Shown one piece after another: positions 6,078-53,034 of a DNA stretch of 63,756 nt. Under the pieces are notes generated by a model that made no database searches, was not told where the DNA came from, and was given only the letters and a program-made list of their open reading frames with translations. The DNA comes from Actinomycetota bacterium (GTDB taxonomy: Bacteria > Actinomycetota > Thermoleophilia > Gaiellales > Gaiellaceae), in contig VAXO01000026.1 of NCBI GenBank assembly GCA_005888435.1, positions 1 through 63,756 on the forward strand. Direction: 5' to 3'. The stretch's first letter is position 1. Each line of letters opens with the position of its first letter. The position numbers and the translations under genes are program-made.

Positions 6078-7331
6078 ATGAGCGACCTCTTCTCAGACGC
6101 TGCGAAGCAACGGCTGCCGGAGGTCGCCCCGCTCGCGCTGCGGATGCGACCGCAGACGCTCGACGAGTTCGTCGGGCAGCAGCAGGTGCTCGGCGAGGGG
6201 TCGGCGCTCCGGACGGCGATCGAGGAAGACCGCGTTCGCTCGGCGATCTTCTACGGGCCGCCCGGGACGGGGAAGACGACGCTCGCGCGAATCGTCGCGA
6301 ACATGACCGGCGCGGCCTTCGAGGAGCTGTCCGCAGTCTCGGCGACCGTGGCGCAGGTACGAGAGGTGCTTGCGCGCGCCCGCGAGCGCCTGGGAGCGAA
6401 CGCGCAACGGACGATCCTGTTCCTCGACGAGATCCACCGCTTCAACAAGGCGCAGCAGGACGCACTGCTGCCTGGCGTCGAGGAGGGCGTGATCACACTC
6501 ATCGGGGCGACGACCGAGAATCCGTACTTCGAGGTCAACTCGGCACTGCTGTCGCGCTCGCAGGTGTACGAGCTCGAGCCGTTGTCCCTGGAGGACCTGG
6601 AGAGGATCGTCCGGGGCGGGGCGGCGGAGCTTCAGGCAGAGGTGCCGGACGAGCTCGCGCGCCTGATCGCGACGCGCGCCGGCGGGGACGCCCGCTCTGC
6701 GCACAACATCCTCGAGCTCGCGTGGCAGACCGCGCAGGCGGCGAAGGAGCCGCTCGGCGAGCCACACGTCGAGGATGCTGCTCGCAAGCGTCCGCTCGTC
6801 TACGACAAGGCGGCCGATGCGCACTACGACTTCATCTCCGCGTTCATCAAGTCGATGCGCGGGTCCGATCCCGACGCGAGCGTCTACTACCTCGCCGCGA
6901 TGCTCGAGAGCGGCGAGGACGCGCGCTACATCGCGCGGCGCATGATCGTCCTGGCGTCCGAGGACATCGGCAACGCCGACCCGCGCGCGCTGCTCGTCGC
7001 CGTCGCGGCCGCGCAGGCGGTCGAGCACGTCGGCCTGCCGGAGGCGCGGCTGAACCTCGCGCAGGCCGCCATCTATCTCGCGCTCGCGCCGAAGTCGAAC
7101 GCCAGCTACATGGCGTTGAAGCGCGCAACGGCAGACGTCCAGGAGAAGGGGAACATCAAGCCACCGAAGGCGCTGGCCGACGGCAGCTGGTACGGCCGGC
7201 AGCTGGGCAAGGGCGAGGGCTACATCTATCCGCACTCAGACCCGGCCGGCTACGACGTCGACTACCTGCCTGACGAGCTCAAGGGCACGACGTACTACGA
7301 GCCCTCGGGGAACGGCGAGGAAGAGAGCTAG
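6078..7331 (+). CDS. rarA: Replication-associated recombination AAA+ ATPase
   Basis: RarA/MgsA, a clamp-loader-like AAA+ ATPase that acts at stalled replication forks. The 417-residue product has Walker A YGPPGTGKTTLA, Walker B ILFLDEIHRFNKAQQD, the sensor segment LIGATTENPYFEVN (hallmark of the RarA/WRNIP1 family), RSQVYELEPL, and the C-terminal tetramerisation part with SMRGSDPDA and SEDIGNADP. ATG at 6078 is preferred to the ORF-track ATG 36 bases upstream, because homology begins with MSDLF and the -10 box falls between the two. The gene is convergent with a phosphoesterase whose stop overlaps it by four bases. Confidence 0.95.
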   Translation: MSDLFSDAAKQRLPEVAPLALRMRPQTLDEFVGQQQVLGEGSALRTAIEEDRVRSAIFYGPPGTGKTTLARIVANMTGAAFEELSAVSATVAQVREVLARARERLGANAQRTILFLDEIHRFNKAQQDALLPGVEEGVITLIGATTENPYFEVNSALLSRSQVYELEPLSLEDLERIVRGGAAELQAEVPDELARLIATRAGGDARSAHNILELAWQTAQAAKEPLGEPHVEDAARKRPLVYDKAADAHYDFISAFIKSMRGSDPDASVYYLAAMLESGEDARYIARRMIVLASEDIGNADPRALLVAVAAAQAVEHVGLPEARLNLAQAAIYLALAPKSNASYMALKRATADVQEKGNIKPPKALADGSWYGRQLGKGEGYIYPHSDPAGYDVDYLPDELKGTTYYEPSGNGEEES

Positions 7332-8002: not shown

Positions 8003-8070
8003 CTAAGGCGCCGACTTGGCGGCGCCGCGTAGAGGTCGCACCAGCTCCGTTCGTGCGACCGTCCAACACA
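8003..8070 (+). repeat. Dispersed two-hairpin repeat, copy 1
   Basis: Starts CTAAGGCG and ends CGACCGTCCAACACA. The first palindromic part is GGCGCCGACT/TGGCGGCGCC; the second is GCACCAGCTCCGTTCGTGC. It is closest to the copy at 42462, sharing AGGCGyCG, CGCCGC, TAGAGG, CGTtCG and CCGTCyAACACA at the same spacing. It lies between the divergent phosphoesterase and ETF genes. Confidence 0.75.
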
Positions 8071-11957: not shown

Positions 11958-13201
11958 GGCCGCCGGTAAACTTCGGCCTCCCTTTGGCGAGGTAGCTCAG
12001 TTGGTAGAGCACACGGCTGAAAACCGTGGTGTCGCCGGTTCGATTCCGGCCCTCGCCACTGCCACAGCGCCGTGGCGATGGCGATCGCGATGAGCGCCAG
12101 AGCGACGACATCCACCGACGCCGACAACGACAGGCGGAGGTCGACGATCCCGGTCGCAATCACCGCTGACGCTACCAGGAGGTAGATGCAGCTGATAAAT
12201 GCGGAGGTGACCTCGCCACGACGCTCCGAGGGAGCGAGGTCGTTCAGCTCCTGCTGCGCGTTCAGGAAAGCGAGGCCGTGGCCGCCGCCCGCAGCTACCG
12301 CGCCCAAGAGGAGGCAGGCGAGCGACTTGAATGGTCCCGCGAGAACGAGCCCGCCGAGACCCAGCGCGAGCAGCGCAAGACCGGCGGCCTGGTCCGGACG
12401 GCGCCGGCCTTCGAACCGCTGCGCGACGATCTGGGAGACGCAGGACGCGAGCAGCGCCACCGAGGCGATCAACGCAAGCAGCGCGAGGTTCGTCGTCCCG
12501 AGCAGGTCGCCGGCGTAGGACGGGACAATCGACAGTAAGAGCGCGACGCTCGCCCAGACCGTGGCCGCGGTGAGGCTCACCCGGAAGAAGTCGCGGCGAA
12601 GCGCGGCGGGCACACGGGGCCACTCGATGCGCCACCCTTCGCGCTCACGTCCAGCCGGTTCGGGCACCGTCAGCGATGCCGCGGCGGTGAGCGCGGTCAG
12701 GCCGAGCGCGACCAGGAAGCAGAGCTCGAGCGGATTTGGCGCCCATTCCGCGAGCGCGCCGGCGAACAGCGGGCCGACTGCGCTGCCACCAGCCTGCGCA
12801 AGACCGGCCAGCAGCGCCGCCCGCCGACGGTCGCCGGCTGGATCCAGCTCGACCAGAGCTGACGCTGCGGCACCGCTGATCATCCCGACAGCAAGCCCCT
12901 GGAGGGCCCGAGCGGCATACAGCCACGCGACGCCGTCGGCCGCGGCGAAGACAACGAGTGCCACGGCTGCCACCGAGAGGCCGGCGAACAGGACCGGCCT
13001 CCGGCCGAAGCGGTCCGAGAGGCGTCCGAAGAGGATCAGAGCCGGCACGAGCACGAACGCGTACGTCGCGAAGATGGAGGTGAGCACGAGGCTCGAGAAG
13101 CCGAACTCCCGCGCATAGACCGCGTAGAGCGGCGTCGCCAGGTTCGCGCCGGCCATCAGCACCAGCCAGGCGATCCAGACCGTCGACACGGCCCTGTTCA
13201 C
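11954..13201 (-). CDS. MFS transporter with C-terminus read antisense through tRNA-Phe
   Basis: Major facilitator superfamily permease, 415 codons, about 12 hydrophobic helices, with the loop 2-3 motif GRLSDRFGRRPVLF and a central cytoplasmic loop near residues 185-200. Such proteins are usually drug or metabolite exporters; the substrate is not readable. GTG start with a GAGGAG ribosome site. The last helix ends near ALIAIAIATALWQ; the following roughly 34 codons (with NRRHHGFQPCALPTELP) are the antisense translation of tRNA-Phe, and the TAA falls inside the last codon of the response regulator gene. The tail is therefore unlikely to be selected protein; the gene appears to lack a stop codon of its own. 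Confidence 0.85.
   Translation of the reverse strand: MNRAVSTVWIAWLVLMAGANLATPLYAVYAREFGFSSLVLTSIFATYAFVLVPALILFGRLSDRFGRRPVLFAGLSVAAVALVVFAAADGVAWLYAARALQGLAVGMISGAAASALVELDPAGDRRRAALLAGLAQAGGSAVGPLFAGALAEWAPNPLELCFLVALGLTALTAAASLTVPEPAGREREGWRIEWPRVPAALRRDFFRVSLTAATVWASVALLLSIVPSYAGDLLGTTNLALLALIASVALLASCVSQIVAQRFEGRRRPDQAAGLALLALGLGGLVLAGPFKSLACLLLGAVAAGGGHGLAFLNAQQELNDLAPSERRGEVTSAFISCIYLLVASAVIATGIVDLRLSLSASVDVVALALIAIAIATALWQWRGPESNRRHHGFQPCALPTELPRQREAEVYRRP
11986..12058 (+). tRNA. tRNA-Phe (GAA)
   Basis: Acceptor GGCGAGG pairs with CCTCGCC, D-arm AGCTCAGTTGGTAGAGC, anticodon stem CACGG/CCGTG with loop CTGAAAA (anticodon GAA), T-arm GCCGG TTCGATT CCGGC, discriminator A. CCA is not encoded. 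A TAAACT box at 11968 is a plausible -10 element. The full gene lies antisense to the end of the MFS ORF. Confidence 0.97.
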
Positions 13202-21026: not shown

Positions 21027-21883
21027 AGCGCTACTTCCGCGAGCACGAACAGCAAAAACGCAACGCTGATGACCCCGTTGACTGTGAAGAAGGCCGCGTC
21101 GAGGCGTCGCAGGTCGTTCGGACGCACGAGCGAGTGTTCGTAGGCGAGCAGCGCCGCGACGACGACCACGCCGATCCAGTAGAGCCAGCCGAGGTCGAGC
21201 CCGAAGCCGACCGCGGCGAGCAACGCGACGGTCGCAACGTGCAACAGGCGGGCCCCGGCGAAGACGCCGCGCACGCCGAAGCGTGACGCGACCGAATGCA
21301 GTCCCTGCTGCACGTCGATGTCGCGGTCGAAGAGCGAGTAGAAGAGGTCGAAGCCGGCAATCCAGGCCGCGACCGCCGCACCGAGAGCCCATGCCTCCCA
21401 CGGAAGCTGTCCCGTGATCGCGACCCAGGCGCCCACCGGCGCGAGGCCGTCGACTGCGCCGAGCCACAGATGGCTCAGCCACGTGAACCGCTTCAGGTAC
21501 GGGTAGACGACGAAGCCGACCACCGGGATCGGCCAGAGCCACCGCACGATCGGTTGGAGCTGGAAGCACGCGACGAGGTACAGCGCGAATGCGAGCGCGC
21601 AGAAGACGACCGCCTGCGCCCGCGAAATGAGGCCGGCCGGAAGCTCGCGAGTCGCCGTGCGCGGGTTACGCGCGTCGATCTCGGCGTCGACGATGCGGTT
21701 CAGGCCCATTGCGAGCGAGCGGGCACCGACCATCGCGACGGTGATCCAGAGCAGATCGTGCGCCGACGGAACCTCGTTCACGCTCAGAAGCGCGCCGATG
21801 TACGCGAACGGCAGCGCGAACACCGTGTGCTCGATCTTCACCAGCGACGCGAAACGGCGCGGCAGCGCGACGGCAGAGCTCAC
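21023..21883 (-). CDS. UbiA-family prenyltransferase, probably menaquinone pathway (MqnP-like)
   Basis: 286-residue integral membrane aromatic prenyltransferase. The first Asp-rich motif reads GLNRIVDAEIDARNPRTATRE, the pattern seen in the futalosine-pathway enzyme MqnP, and the second is YSLFDRDIDVQQGLHSVASRFG. About eight helices follow. GTG start is used; the tracked ORF begins 27 codons earlier inside the repeat region. The ribosome-binding stretch GGGAGACGCAGTGAG is duplicated in the repeat 97 bp upstream. Supplying menaquinone next to cytochrome c maturation genes fits a respiratory operon; a haem-modifying role is a less likely alternative. Confidence 0.85.
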   Translation of the reverse strand: MSSAVALPRRFASLVKIEHTVFALPFAYIGALLSVNEVPSAHDLLWITVAMVGARSLAMGLNRIVDAEIDARNPRTATRELPAGLISRAQAVVFCALAFALYLVACFQLQPIVRWLWPIPVVGFVVYPYLKRFTWLSHLWLGAVDGLAPVGAWVAITGQLPWEAWALGAAVAAWIAGFDLFYSLFDRDIDVQQGLHSVASRFGVRGVFAGARLLHVATVALLAAVGFGLDLGWLYWIGVVVVAALLAYEHSLVRPNDLRRLDAAFFTVNGVISVAFLLFVLAEVAL

Positions 21884-21921
21884 TGCGTCTCCCTCGATCC
21901 GAGCGCCGCCGGCCGGCGGCG

Positions 21922-21980
21922 CAGACGGACGCGCGAGCAAGCTCGCACGCCCTGATGTCGGCATCGCAAGCGACGCCTCA
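21922..21980 (-). repeat. Dispersed two-hairpin repeat, copy 2 (minus orientation)
   Basis: Read on the minus strand it starts TGAGGCGTCGCTTGCGATGC, continues CGACATCAGGGCG, then hairpin GCGAGCTTGCTCGC and ends CGTCCGTCTG. It is 59 bases long, and its first 48 bases are identical to the neighbouring copy. Confidence 0.85.
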
Positions 21981-21993
21981 CTGCGTCTCCCTC

Positions 21994-22042
21994 GGCGAGC
22001 AAGCTCGCACGCCCTGATGTCGGCATCGCAAGCGACGCCTCA
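21994..22042 (-). repeat. Dispersed two-hairpin repeat, copy 3, starting in the moaB stop codon
   Basis: 48 bases identical to copy 2, lacking its last ten bases. On the minus strand its first TGA is the moaB stop codon. It is followed by CGAGGGAGACGCAG, the same sequence that precedes the ubiA start, indicating a tandem duplication. Confidence 0.85.
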
Positions 22043-22519
22043 TGTCGGCACGTGTTCCGTCGGGTCGCCGGCGAGCAGCTCGAGCGCGTGCGCGAGCGCC
22101 GGCTTGATCAGCTCGAAGCCGTCACGGCAACCGCCGGGCGAACCAGGGAGGTTGACGATCAGCGCCTGCCCGCGGATGCCCGCGACGCCACGGCCGAGCA
22201 GGCCGTGCGGTGTCTTCTTCACCGCGTCGGCGCGAAGCGACTCGGCGATGCCGGGCACCAGGCGGTCGAGCACCGACTCCGTCGCCTCCGGCGTGAAGTC
22301 CCGCGGCGAGACGCCGGTGCCTCCCGTCGTCAGGACGAGCCGCGCGGTCTGTGCGAGCTCGCGGATCGCGGCAGCGATCCTCGGCCGCTCATCTGGGACG
22401 ACACGGTGCTCGACGTCGTAGCGCTCCGCCTCCAGGAGCTCGACGAGGAGTGCACCGCTCTCGTCGTCCCGCTCACCCGCGGAGACGCCGTCCGAGATCG
22501 TGACGACGGCTGCCTTCAC
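22040..22519 (-). CDS. moaB: Molybdopterin adenylyltransferase (MoaB/MogA)
   Basis: Adenylylates molybdopterin before molybdate insertion. The 159-residue protein has [38 protein letters not shown] and the [16 protein letters not shown] segment of the MoaB/MogA fold. GTG start overlaps the moaC stop by four bases (GTGA), coupling two cofactor steps. The stop codon is the first base triplet of a dispersed hairpin repeat. MoeA, the next enzyme in the pathway, is encoded at 32.5 kb. Confidence 0.92.
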
Positions 22520-41280: not shown

Positions 41281-41327
41281 CGCGCGAGCTCAGCTCGCGC
41301 GCGTTCCCCGCGAAGCGGCGTACCTCA
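41281..41327 (-). repeat. Degenerate two-hairpin repeat after the MBL-fold gene
   Basis: Minus strand: starts TGAGG at the stop codon of the upstream gene, continues with CCGCTTCGCGG and then the hairpin CGCGCGAGCTGAGCTCGCGCG. Layout and the second hairpin fit the family; the first half is divergent. Confidence 0.45.
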
Positions 41328-42457: not shown

Positions 42458-42461
42458 CCGC

Positions 42462-42529
42462 CTAGGCGTCGGCTCGCCGACGCCGCATAGAGGCCGGGCG
42501 AGCTCTGCTCGTTCGGCCGTCTAACACAC
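42462..42529 (+). repeat. Dispersed two-hairpin repeat, copy 5
   Basis: CTAGGCGTCGG/CTCG/CCGACGCC forms the first hairpin and CGGGCGAGCTCTGCTCG the second; ends CGGCCGTCTAACACA. Very close to the copy at 8003 over its full length. Sits in the divergent spacer between DUF2203 and the PIG-V-like gene. Confidence 0.8.
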
Positions 42530-48189: not shown

Positions 48190-48263
48190 TGGGCGATCGT
48201 GGATTCGAACCACGGACCTCCGCCTTATCAGAGCGGCGCTCTAACCAACTGAGCTAATCGCCC
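48190..48263 (-). tRNA. tRNA-Ile (GAT)
   Basis: On the minus strand: acceptor GGGCGAT/ATCGCCC, D-arm AGCTCAGTTGGTTAGAGC, anticodon stem CCGCT/GGCGG with loop CTGATAA (anticodon GAT), T-arm CGTGG TTCGAAT CCACG, discriminator A, CCA not encoded. It stands alone, not in an rRNA spacer. Confidence 0.97.
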
Positions 48264-52253: not shown

Positions 52254-52480
52254 GTGAACACCTGCTGGTCGTGCGCGTAGTCGACGCCGCCGCGGCTCCA
52301 CGGATTGCAGCGCAGTAGCCGCCACGCGGCGAGCACTGTCCCCTTGAAGAGGCCGAACTCCTTGTACGCGTCGATGGCGTACTCCGAGCAGGACGGATGG
52401 TACTTGCAGCTTCCGGCACCGAGGAAGGGTTTCAGCGTCAGGCGATATCCCCAGATCAGCGCGACGCCGAGATACCTCAC
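52250..52480 (-). CDS. yidD: Membrane protein insertion efficiency factor YidD
   Basis: 76-residue protein with the UPF0161 signature LKPFLGAGSCKYHPSCSEYAIDAYKEFGLFKG and the Cys-containing LLRCNPWSRGG. GTG (VRYLGVALIWGYRL) chosen; the tracked ORF runs 54 codons upstream through a hairpin repeat. Small peripheral protein assisting YidC. In the standard rnpA-yidD-yidC order. Confidence 0.93.
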   Translation of the reverse strand: MRYLGVALIWGYRLTLKPFLGAGSCKYHPSCSEYAIDAYKEFGLFKGTVLAAWRLLRCNPWSRGGVDYAHDQQVFT

Positions 52481-52518
52481 GATGCGCGCTCCGACTCCGG
52501 CGCTGTCGGTCGGCTGCA

Positions 52519-52577
52519 CAGACGGACCTGCGAGCAAGCTCGCCCCCCTGGAGGTCGGCAGCGCAGGCGGCGCCTCA
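52519..52577 (-). repeat. Dispersed two-hairpin repeat, copy 6, starting in the rnpA stop codon
   Basis: Minus strand: TGAGGCGCCGCCTGCGCTGC, CGACCTCCAGGGG, hairpin GCGAGCTTGCTCGC, AGGTCCGTCTG. Same 59-base length as the copy at 21922. Its first TGA is the rnpA stop codon; it separates rnpA from yidD. Confidence 0.82.
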
Positions 52578-52922
52578 CGCGGCCGCCTTCCCGAGCACCT
52601 CGTCCACGCGCTCGCCGAGCCACTCGAACCCGTTCGCTGCAATAGCCTCCGACAGGCCCGGCTTGGCGATCAGCACGTAGTCGCGGCCGCCGGGAACGTC
52701 CCCGAGTCGTGCGCGCCACACCTCGCGCAGCTGCCGCTTGATCTTGTTACGGGCGACTGCATTGCCGGCCGCCCTCGGCACGGCCAGGCCGAGGCGCGGC
52801 TCGCCGGGCTCCTCCTCGCGGTCGAACCAGTACATGACCAGGAACCGCGTGGACGTCGATCGGCCCTGCCGGTAGACGGCGTCGAAGTCTCGCGAACGAG
52901 ACAAGCGGTGCCGGCGTTGCAC
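52575..52922 (-). CDS. rnpA: Ribonuclease P protein component
   Basis: 115-residue basic protein assisting tRNA 5' maturation. RLSRSRDFDAVYRQGRS at the start, the RNP signature AVARNKIKRQLREVWR and a C-terminal helix. GTG start. It lies between rpmH and yidD, the usual position, but is flanked on both sides by copies of the dispersed repeat, so this part of the rpmH-rnpA-yidD run is interrupted by structured spacers. Confidence 0.95.
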   Translation of the reverse strand: MQRRHRLSRSRDFDAVYRQGRSTSTRFLVMYWFDREEEPGEPRLGLAVPRAAGNAVARNKIKRQLREVWRARLGDVPGGRDYVLIAKPGLSEAIAANGFEWLGERVDEVLGKAAA

Positions 52923-52925
52923 GGA

Positions 52926-52986
52926 CTAAGGCGTCGCTCGCGACGCCGACATCAGGCCGAGCGGGCTTTGCCTGCTCGACCGTCGG
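52926..52986 (+). repeat. Dispersed two-hairpin repeat, copy 7
   Basis: CTAAGGCGTCGC TC GCGACGCC, then GACATCAGG, hairpin GAGCGGGCTTTGCCTGCTC and GACCGTCGG. Perfect first stem. Lies between rpmH and rnpA, in the orientation opposite to copy 6, so the two flank rnpA as inverted copies. Confidence 0.82.
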
Positions 52987-53034
52987 AAATCGCCGGCCGA
53001 CACGATTGAAGTAACCACTATGGCTTGAACCAGC

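Follow-up and report, generated by a model that had tools for sequence, protein, structure and literature searches.

A dispersed family of two-hairpin intergenic repeats, probably a non-autonomous insertion element with MIRU-like behaviour

The repeats that flank rnpA in the window (the whole stretch of DNA that was analysed, 63,756 nucleotides) belong to a dispersed family which, on comparative evidence, is probably a non-autonomous mobile insertion element. It is MIRU-like in behaviour, with target duplications of variable length and with coupled ORFs in part of the copies. The element appears to be a family separate from MIRU and new as a family, set apart by its features. The window is on contig C86 of the host MAG (G000; 2.45 Mb, 144 contigs, 89% complete). 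The sequence-only reading had proposed a dispersed REP- or MITE-like family; its dispersed, mobile and non-autonomous character is supported here by ~48 copies in the genome, 224 compensatory cells in the alignment and empty sites in relatives.

Copies in the window

R1, a covariance model made from five of the window copies, was run on the window with filters off. The five building copies score 64–79 bits. Seven copies sharing one layout had been listed, and reading and alignment show true members with this layout at six of these places (8003, 21922, 21994, 42462, 52519 and 52926; 42–79 bits). The one at 21994-22042, outside the building set, scores 42 bits; it is 3'-truncated and part of a tandem pair. 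The seventh candidate, 41281-41327, was rejected as its match is confined to one hairpin and scores similarly on both strands. The features are as follows.

8003..8066, + strand: type-B core between divergent genes, upstream of an electron-transfer flavoprotein gene (67.1 bits; neighbours by Pfam)
21880..21981, - strand: 33-codon ORF in the 21901..21981 copy, its TGA overlapping the ubiA GTG start
21901..21981, - strand: moaB/ubiA copy, second in the tandem pair (79.4 bits)
21988..22043, - strand: 3'-truncated first copy of the tandem pair, at the moaB stop codon (42 bits)
41281..41327, no strand: not a member, an unrelated GC-rich palindrome (20.7 bits, versus 18.3 bits on the opposite strand)
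42461..42524, + strand: type-B core in a divergent intergenic region, adjoining a DUF2203 gene (73.8 bits; neighbours by Pfam)
52573-52578 and 52475-52480: GTGAGG repeats bordering E1
52477..52578, - strand: 33-codon ORF within E1 (frame-0 stop 99 nt past the element start, context GTGAG)
52481..52578, - strand: copy E1, a 98 bp net insertion at rnpA/yidD (64.4 bits)
52518-52578, - strand: E1 hairpin core
52575..52922, - strand: rnpA, between E1 and E2 (Pfam Ribonuclease_P, E=1.1e-26)
52926..53012, + strand: copy E2 at the rpmH/rnpA junction, antisense to both genes (76.1 bits)

The GTG of the E1 ORF overlaps the TGA of rnpA, and its TGA overlaps the GTG of yidD. The core of E2 is 52926-52986, with a tail to ~53012, the 3' end being approximate. 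The 21901..21981 copy is bordered by an 18-bp direct repeat, CGAGGGAGACGCAGTGAG, and the truncated copy beside it contains a 21-codon ORF that ends in a TGA overlapping the next copy's GTG. Four minus-strand copies had been placed at preceding stop codons; three of these are true ones (at the moaB stop, its tandem partner and at the rnpA stop). The inverted orientation of the two copies around rnpA stands, while nothing was found linking them to the origin. Two tRNA genes, at 11986-12058 (+) and 48190-48263 (-), are the only Rfam matches in the window at the gathering threshold.

Copy number and distribution

In the host MAG, R1 identifies ~48 copies at E<1e-3. Chance similarity among GC-rich palindromes is excluded because R1 finds ~40 further genomic copies at E<1e-5, and plain BLAST with one copy finds several matches outside the window at E<1e-3. 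The scan of the genome and its relatives that had been suggested as a check returned tens of matches with compensatory changes. R1 matches are present in 19 of 61 relatives, with a maximum of 87 copies (G022). Within the genus nine of ten genomes have matches, in other genera of the family the distribution is patchy, and no match occurs in 24 genomes from other families of the order. Of 219 genomes sampled across the class, 17 match, every one in the same family. The sole genome of the genus without R1 copies, G006, has two Y1 transposase genes. The element matches no known family in Rfam, a plasmid search gave no match to it, and viral contigs, searched for one specific pattern, gave none either.

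Structure and covariation

The element reads, 5' to 3', (C/G)TRAG(GC), hairpin P1, a short spacer, hairpin P2, CCGTC and a tail of 20–35 bp. The core spans 62 bp, and the whole element, at ~85–100 bp, is longer than the 59–68 bp of the sequence-only reading owing to the less conserved tail after CCGTC. Two types are distinguished by the end of the spacer, which is ..TCAGG in type A and ..AGAGG in type B. Past CCGTC, type A is conserved for ~20 bp (TGAAATGACCGGTCGA..CG; the type A tail is TGAAATGACCGGTCGACACG), and type B more weakly. The P2 stem has 12 bp and a loop of 3–4 nt. In type B, pairing is possible between TAGA ahead of P2 and TCTA behind it (checked on the 42462 copy), and in type A, by eye, TCAG can face CTGA. 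No terminal inverted repeats were seen by eye when the 5' end was compared with the tail in full copies delimited by duplications. At one locus (L049, G000:C80 near 6242-6302) an extra P1-like palindrome, ACCGAGGCGCTGCTTGCAGCGCCTCGGT, directly adjoins the element, as if a longer form of P1 had been duplicated.

Both stems show extensive covariation. Among 106 distinct copies 97.2% of cells are paired, 14 of the 20 pairs have changed on both sides and 224 cells are compensatory, in an alignment fitted to R1 itself, which favours pairing, and with shared ancestry inflating the counts. None of 500 shuffles matches the pairing on any measure, and sliding the partners abolishes the signal. Wobble pairs are strongly asymmetric, G·T outnumbering C·A by 108 to 6; this skew indicates that it is the forward strand that folds, in single-stranded form, and is compatible with RNA as well as with single-stranded DNA (ssDNA). 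At several separate pairs the intermediate is G·T, not C·A. The ratio is 25:1 where both neighbouring genes are antisense and 40:3 where both are sense, with similar mismatch rates. Skew and mismatches thus do not depend on whether a copy is sense or antisense, and the structure therefore seems to be important for the copying or movement of the element, and not for transcripts at individual sites.

Empty and filled sites

Mobility is well supported by comparison of orthologous junctions, because relatives have empty sites. In seven of nine same-genus genomes rnpA and yidD share a GTGA or ATGA overlap with no insertion; the host MAG has 98 extra bp between GTGAGG repeats, and G009 also has an element there. 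The rpmH-rnpA spacer is 4–17 bp in seven same-genus genomes, and an element occupies it in the host MAG and G003. Between PAP2 and cdd, seven genomes read TGTGAGCAA or similar (an RTGA overlap), the host MAG has the element between two CAGTGAG, and G002 has an apparent decayed remnant of it. The RTGA overlap of oppD and oppF is intact in four species and filled by the element in the host MAG, with unrelated extra DNA in a fifth species. In G009 (L304, G009:C7) this overlap holds a larger, different inverted-repeat insertion.

The host MAG groups with G001 in a tree of the dnaA region (100% support), and G001 has neither E1 nor E2. The same tree puts the host MAG and G003 apart. Shared ancestry of E2 in these two genomes is unsupported, as each copy is closer to many others: they are not mutual nearest neighbours and rank 16 and 43 among ~120 copies. 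The rpmH-rnpA junction has thus probably been hit twice independently. For E1 in the host MAG and G009 the comparison is ambiguous, with cores that favour separate origins and tails that are weakly most alike.

Target duplications

In many copies the end of the left flank recurs after the element, and the left repeat stops exactly at the element's 5' end. The duplication is variable in length, from 5–7 bp at overlaps up to ~36–45 bp at rnpB, guaB and elsewhere (39 bp at guaB, L238; 45 bp at L245; 16–20 bp at L040, L207, L201 and L031). All 353 mismatched pairings are outscored by 21 of 118 copies in a right-anchored alignment test, and around half of the 21 belong to tandem pairs, where a repeat is expected regardless. 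For most copies no target duplication can be detected, which decay would presumably explain.

Target duplication is seen most clearly at rnpB in G005, where GCAGCTACAATTCGACACGCAGGCCGGGTGACCGCG stands twice, around the element; in six relatives it is present once. The duplication is ~36 bp and includes the promoter -10, and its decayed copy is the one no longer driving rnpB. The sequence from the element to the right repeat was considered as a native promoter and rejected, since the empty rnpB sites show that it is the right-hand half of a duplication which was longer and has partly decayed.

Tandem copies occur at L031, L035, L044, L066, L205, L228, L230 and L242; such arrays would follow naturally from recombination between flanking repeats. 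At L066 (G000:C30:26817-27007) two tandem elements lie just inside the 5' end of an apparent tRNA gene, the 5' part of which is duplicated at each copy. At L063 (G000:C82:16857-16921) the 3' end of a sigma-factor-like gene holds the element, and the direct repeat there, ~75 bp, is longer than elsewhere.

Gene context and coupled ORFs

All four combinations of neighbour direction occur, as called by a simple codon-usage gene finder: 36 copies are in the same sense as both neighbours, 33 are antisense to both, 21 are between convergent and 18 between divergent genes. Where the upstream gene runs in the same direction (61 copies), its stop codon is formed by element positions 2-4 in 23. In the host MAG an open frame of 63–102 nt that ends in RTGA is present in every one of the seven RTGAG-starting copies. 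At six of the seven the next start, of a gene or of a tandem copy, is recognised at this RTGA by inspection or gene call, giving a -4 nt overlap. A coupled ORF is also present in the E1 copy of G009 and at L206; most copies have none.

The position at gene ends, the strong covariation and the RNA-type wobble asymmetry could also be expected of an immobile, cis-regulatory or terminator-like RNA structure held in place by selection, and part of the family could affect mRNA processing. However, neighbours are found in every combination of direction, sense and antisense copies are alike in pairing quality and wobble skew, presence at orthologous junctions is patchy, target duplications are found, and Rfam has no match. 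This explanation is unlikely overall, and as the cause of the structure it was rejected for the lack of any sense/antisense difference.

Search for a mobilising enzyme

A further explanation is that the element is of REP/REPtron type, with P1 after the CTRAG tag serving as a REP-like foot that a RAYT moves through ssDNA. The short conserved tag before a hairpin, the folding of the forward strand and the presence of Y1_Tnp genes in most genomes, including one in the host MAG, are all compatible with this. However, the search for a RAYT suggested with the sequence-only reading argues against it: 30 Y1 (RAYT-type) loci that were fetched have no convincing copy within 1.5 kb (only matches with E of at least 0.016), no Y1 gene was found in three element-bearing genomes (G030, with 38 copies and 91% complete; G003, with 24 copies; and G034), and several element-free genomes have Y1 hits. 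The long target duplications are a further difficulty, as Y1 chemistry is not expected to yield them. The tag, the size and the head-to-head dimer organisation of REPs are also unlike what is seen here (PMC3733652). A REP/RAYT origin is therefore improbable, and it was rejected as the best reading on account of the Y1 loci without copies and the element-bearing genomes without Y1. The earlier label REP does not suit an element of ~85–100 bp with two hairpins, target duplications up to ~45 bp and no copy near Y1 loci.

Retrotransposition, in which an RNA copy is inserted by target-primed reverse transcription, would account for duplications of variable length and an RNA-like wobble bias, but is very improbable: RVT_1 has no match in the same-family genomes searched (incomplete MAGs, including the element-rich G005, G008, G009, G012 and G022, and drawn from outside G023-G036, the range that contains G028 and G030), and the boundary that is sharply fixed lies 5' on the folded strand, opposite to the usual LINE pattern. 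Action of an IS1634/IS1549-type DDE transposase on a derived miniature element has a precedent in the long, variable-length direct repeats of these insertion sequences (PMC2266710), but no searched genome of the family exceeds the IS1634-type cut-off and the element has no visible terminal inverted repeats, so that this too is very unlikely. Across the Y1, RVT_1 and IS1634 searches and the element copies themselves, no mobilising enzyme or autonomous copy was identified. Incompleteness of the MAGs weakens each of these absences taken alone, and the joint pattern less.

Proposed mode of insertion

As a non-autonomous insertion element, the repeat inserts at gene boundaries and duplicates 5–7 to ~45 bp of target, with one copy of the duplication exactly abutting its 5' end; tandem amplification or decay follows. 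The copied unit would be the forward strand in folded, single-stranded form, probably as ssDNA because no reverse transcriptase was found, and its movement may depend on an enzyme acting in trans whose cuts are widely staggered. In stop/start overlaps the RTGAG-starting subset re-creates, through an ORF of ~33 codons, the translational coupling at -4 nt with the gene that follows, and translation of the operon should thus be retained. The near-restriction to gene edges is probably mostly due to selection, because the target duplication together with the supplied stop codon or coupling ORF keeps both neighbours intact.

We know of no account of how MIRUs and other orphan bacterial repeats move. 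One possibility, which we regard as doubtful but worth stating, is an undescribed transposition system in which an enzyme of the host, or one acting in trans, makes widely staggered cuts (5 to ~45 bp) and inserts a forward-strand, two-hairpin ssDNA there without the help of a RAYT, a reverse transcriptase or an IS1634-type transposase; it might also explain MIRU-like and CGTC-REP-like orphan repeats. The family makes the insertion reaction testable: it supplies many empty and filled ortholog pairs, long target duplications from which the 5' boundary can be read to the single base, a structural signature specific to one strand, and stop/start overlaps that have been hit independently more than once. 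From the sequences compared, insertion also appears to rebuild the translational coupling of operon genes such as rnpA and yidD.

Comparison with known systems

GTAG REPs are single palindromes of 20–40 bp with a GTAG tag (PMC3733652, PMC2817692). The element shares with them and their RAYTs a short 5' tag on a hairpin and strand-specific folding (PMC3733652, PMC2817692), but starts with (C/G)TRAG and has no GTAG tag, is larger with two hairpins, and shows no association with a tyrosine transposase. CGTC-tagged REPs are 20–40 bp long with stems of 8–9 bp and loops of 4–5 nt, form head-to-head dimers and have no dedicated transposase (PMC3733652). The element likewise is intergenic, with a hairpin adjoining CGTC and no dedicated transposase known; it differs in its two hairpins, 12-bp P2 stem, 3–4 nt loop, target duplications and tandem rather than head-to-head arrangement.

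The CIR elements of Caulobacter and Brucella resemble it as intergenic, linker-joined pairs of hairpin arms whose mobility mechanism is not known (PMC2229807). However, CIR elements carry a GANTC motif and are closed by stops in every frame (PMC2229807), whereas a subset of the present element has a coupled ORF. IS1549 and IS1634 provide a precedent for long and variable target duplications, but they are complete insertion sequences that possess terminal inverted repeats as well as a transposase (PMC2266710), both of which the element lacks. The description MITE-like is apt only broadly, for a small non-autonomous insertion: the element has a target-site duplication, long and variable (5 to ~45 bp), but no terminal inverted repeats were seen.

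In behaviour the element comes nearest to MIRU, the mycobacterial interspersed repetitive unit known from tuberculosis. MIRUs are 40–100 bp long, occur at tens of gene junctions and often in tandem, with spacers of a few bp there in close relatives (PMC12548453, PMC2734929), and their insertion sites are start codons, with coupling at -4 nt through an internal ORF (PMC12548453). The element is similar in its 85–100 bp length, its ~48 loci in the host MAG, its tandem copies, its empty junctions with few-bp spacers and, in a subset of copies, its insertion at stop/start overlaps with a -4 nt coupled ORF. It is unlike MIRU in having two covarying hairpins and long, variable target duplications, in the restriction of the coupled ORF to a subset, and in its confinement, in our sample, to one non-mycobacterial family; the likeness is one of behaviour.
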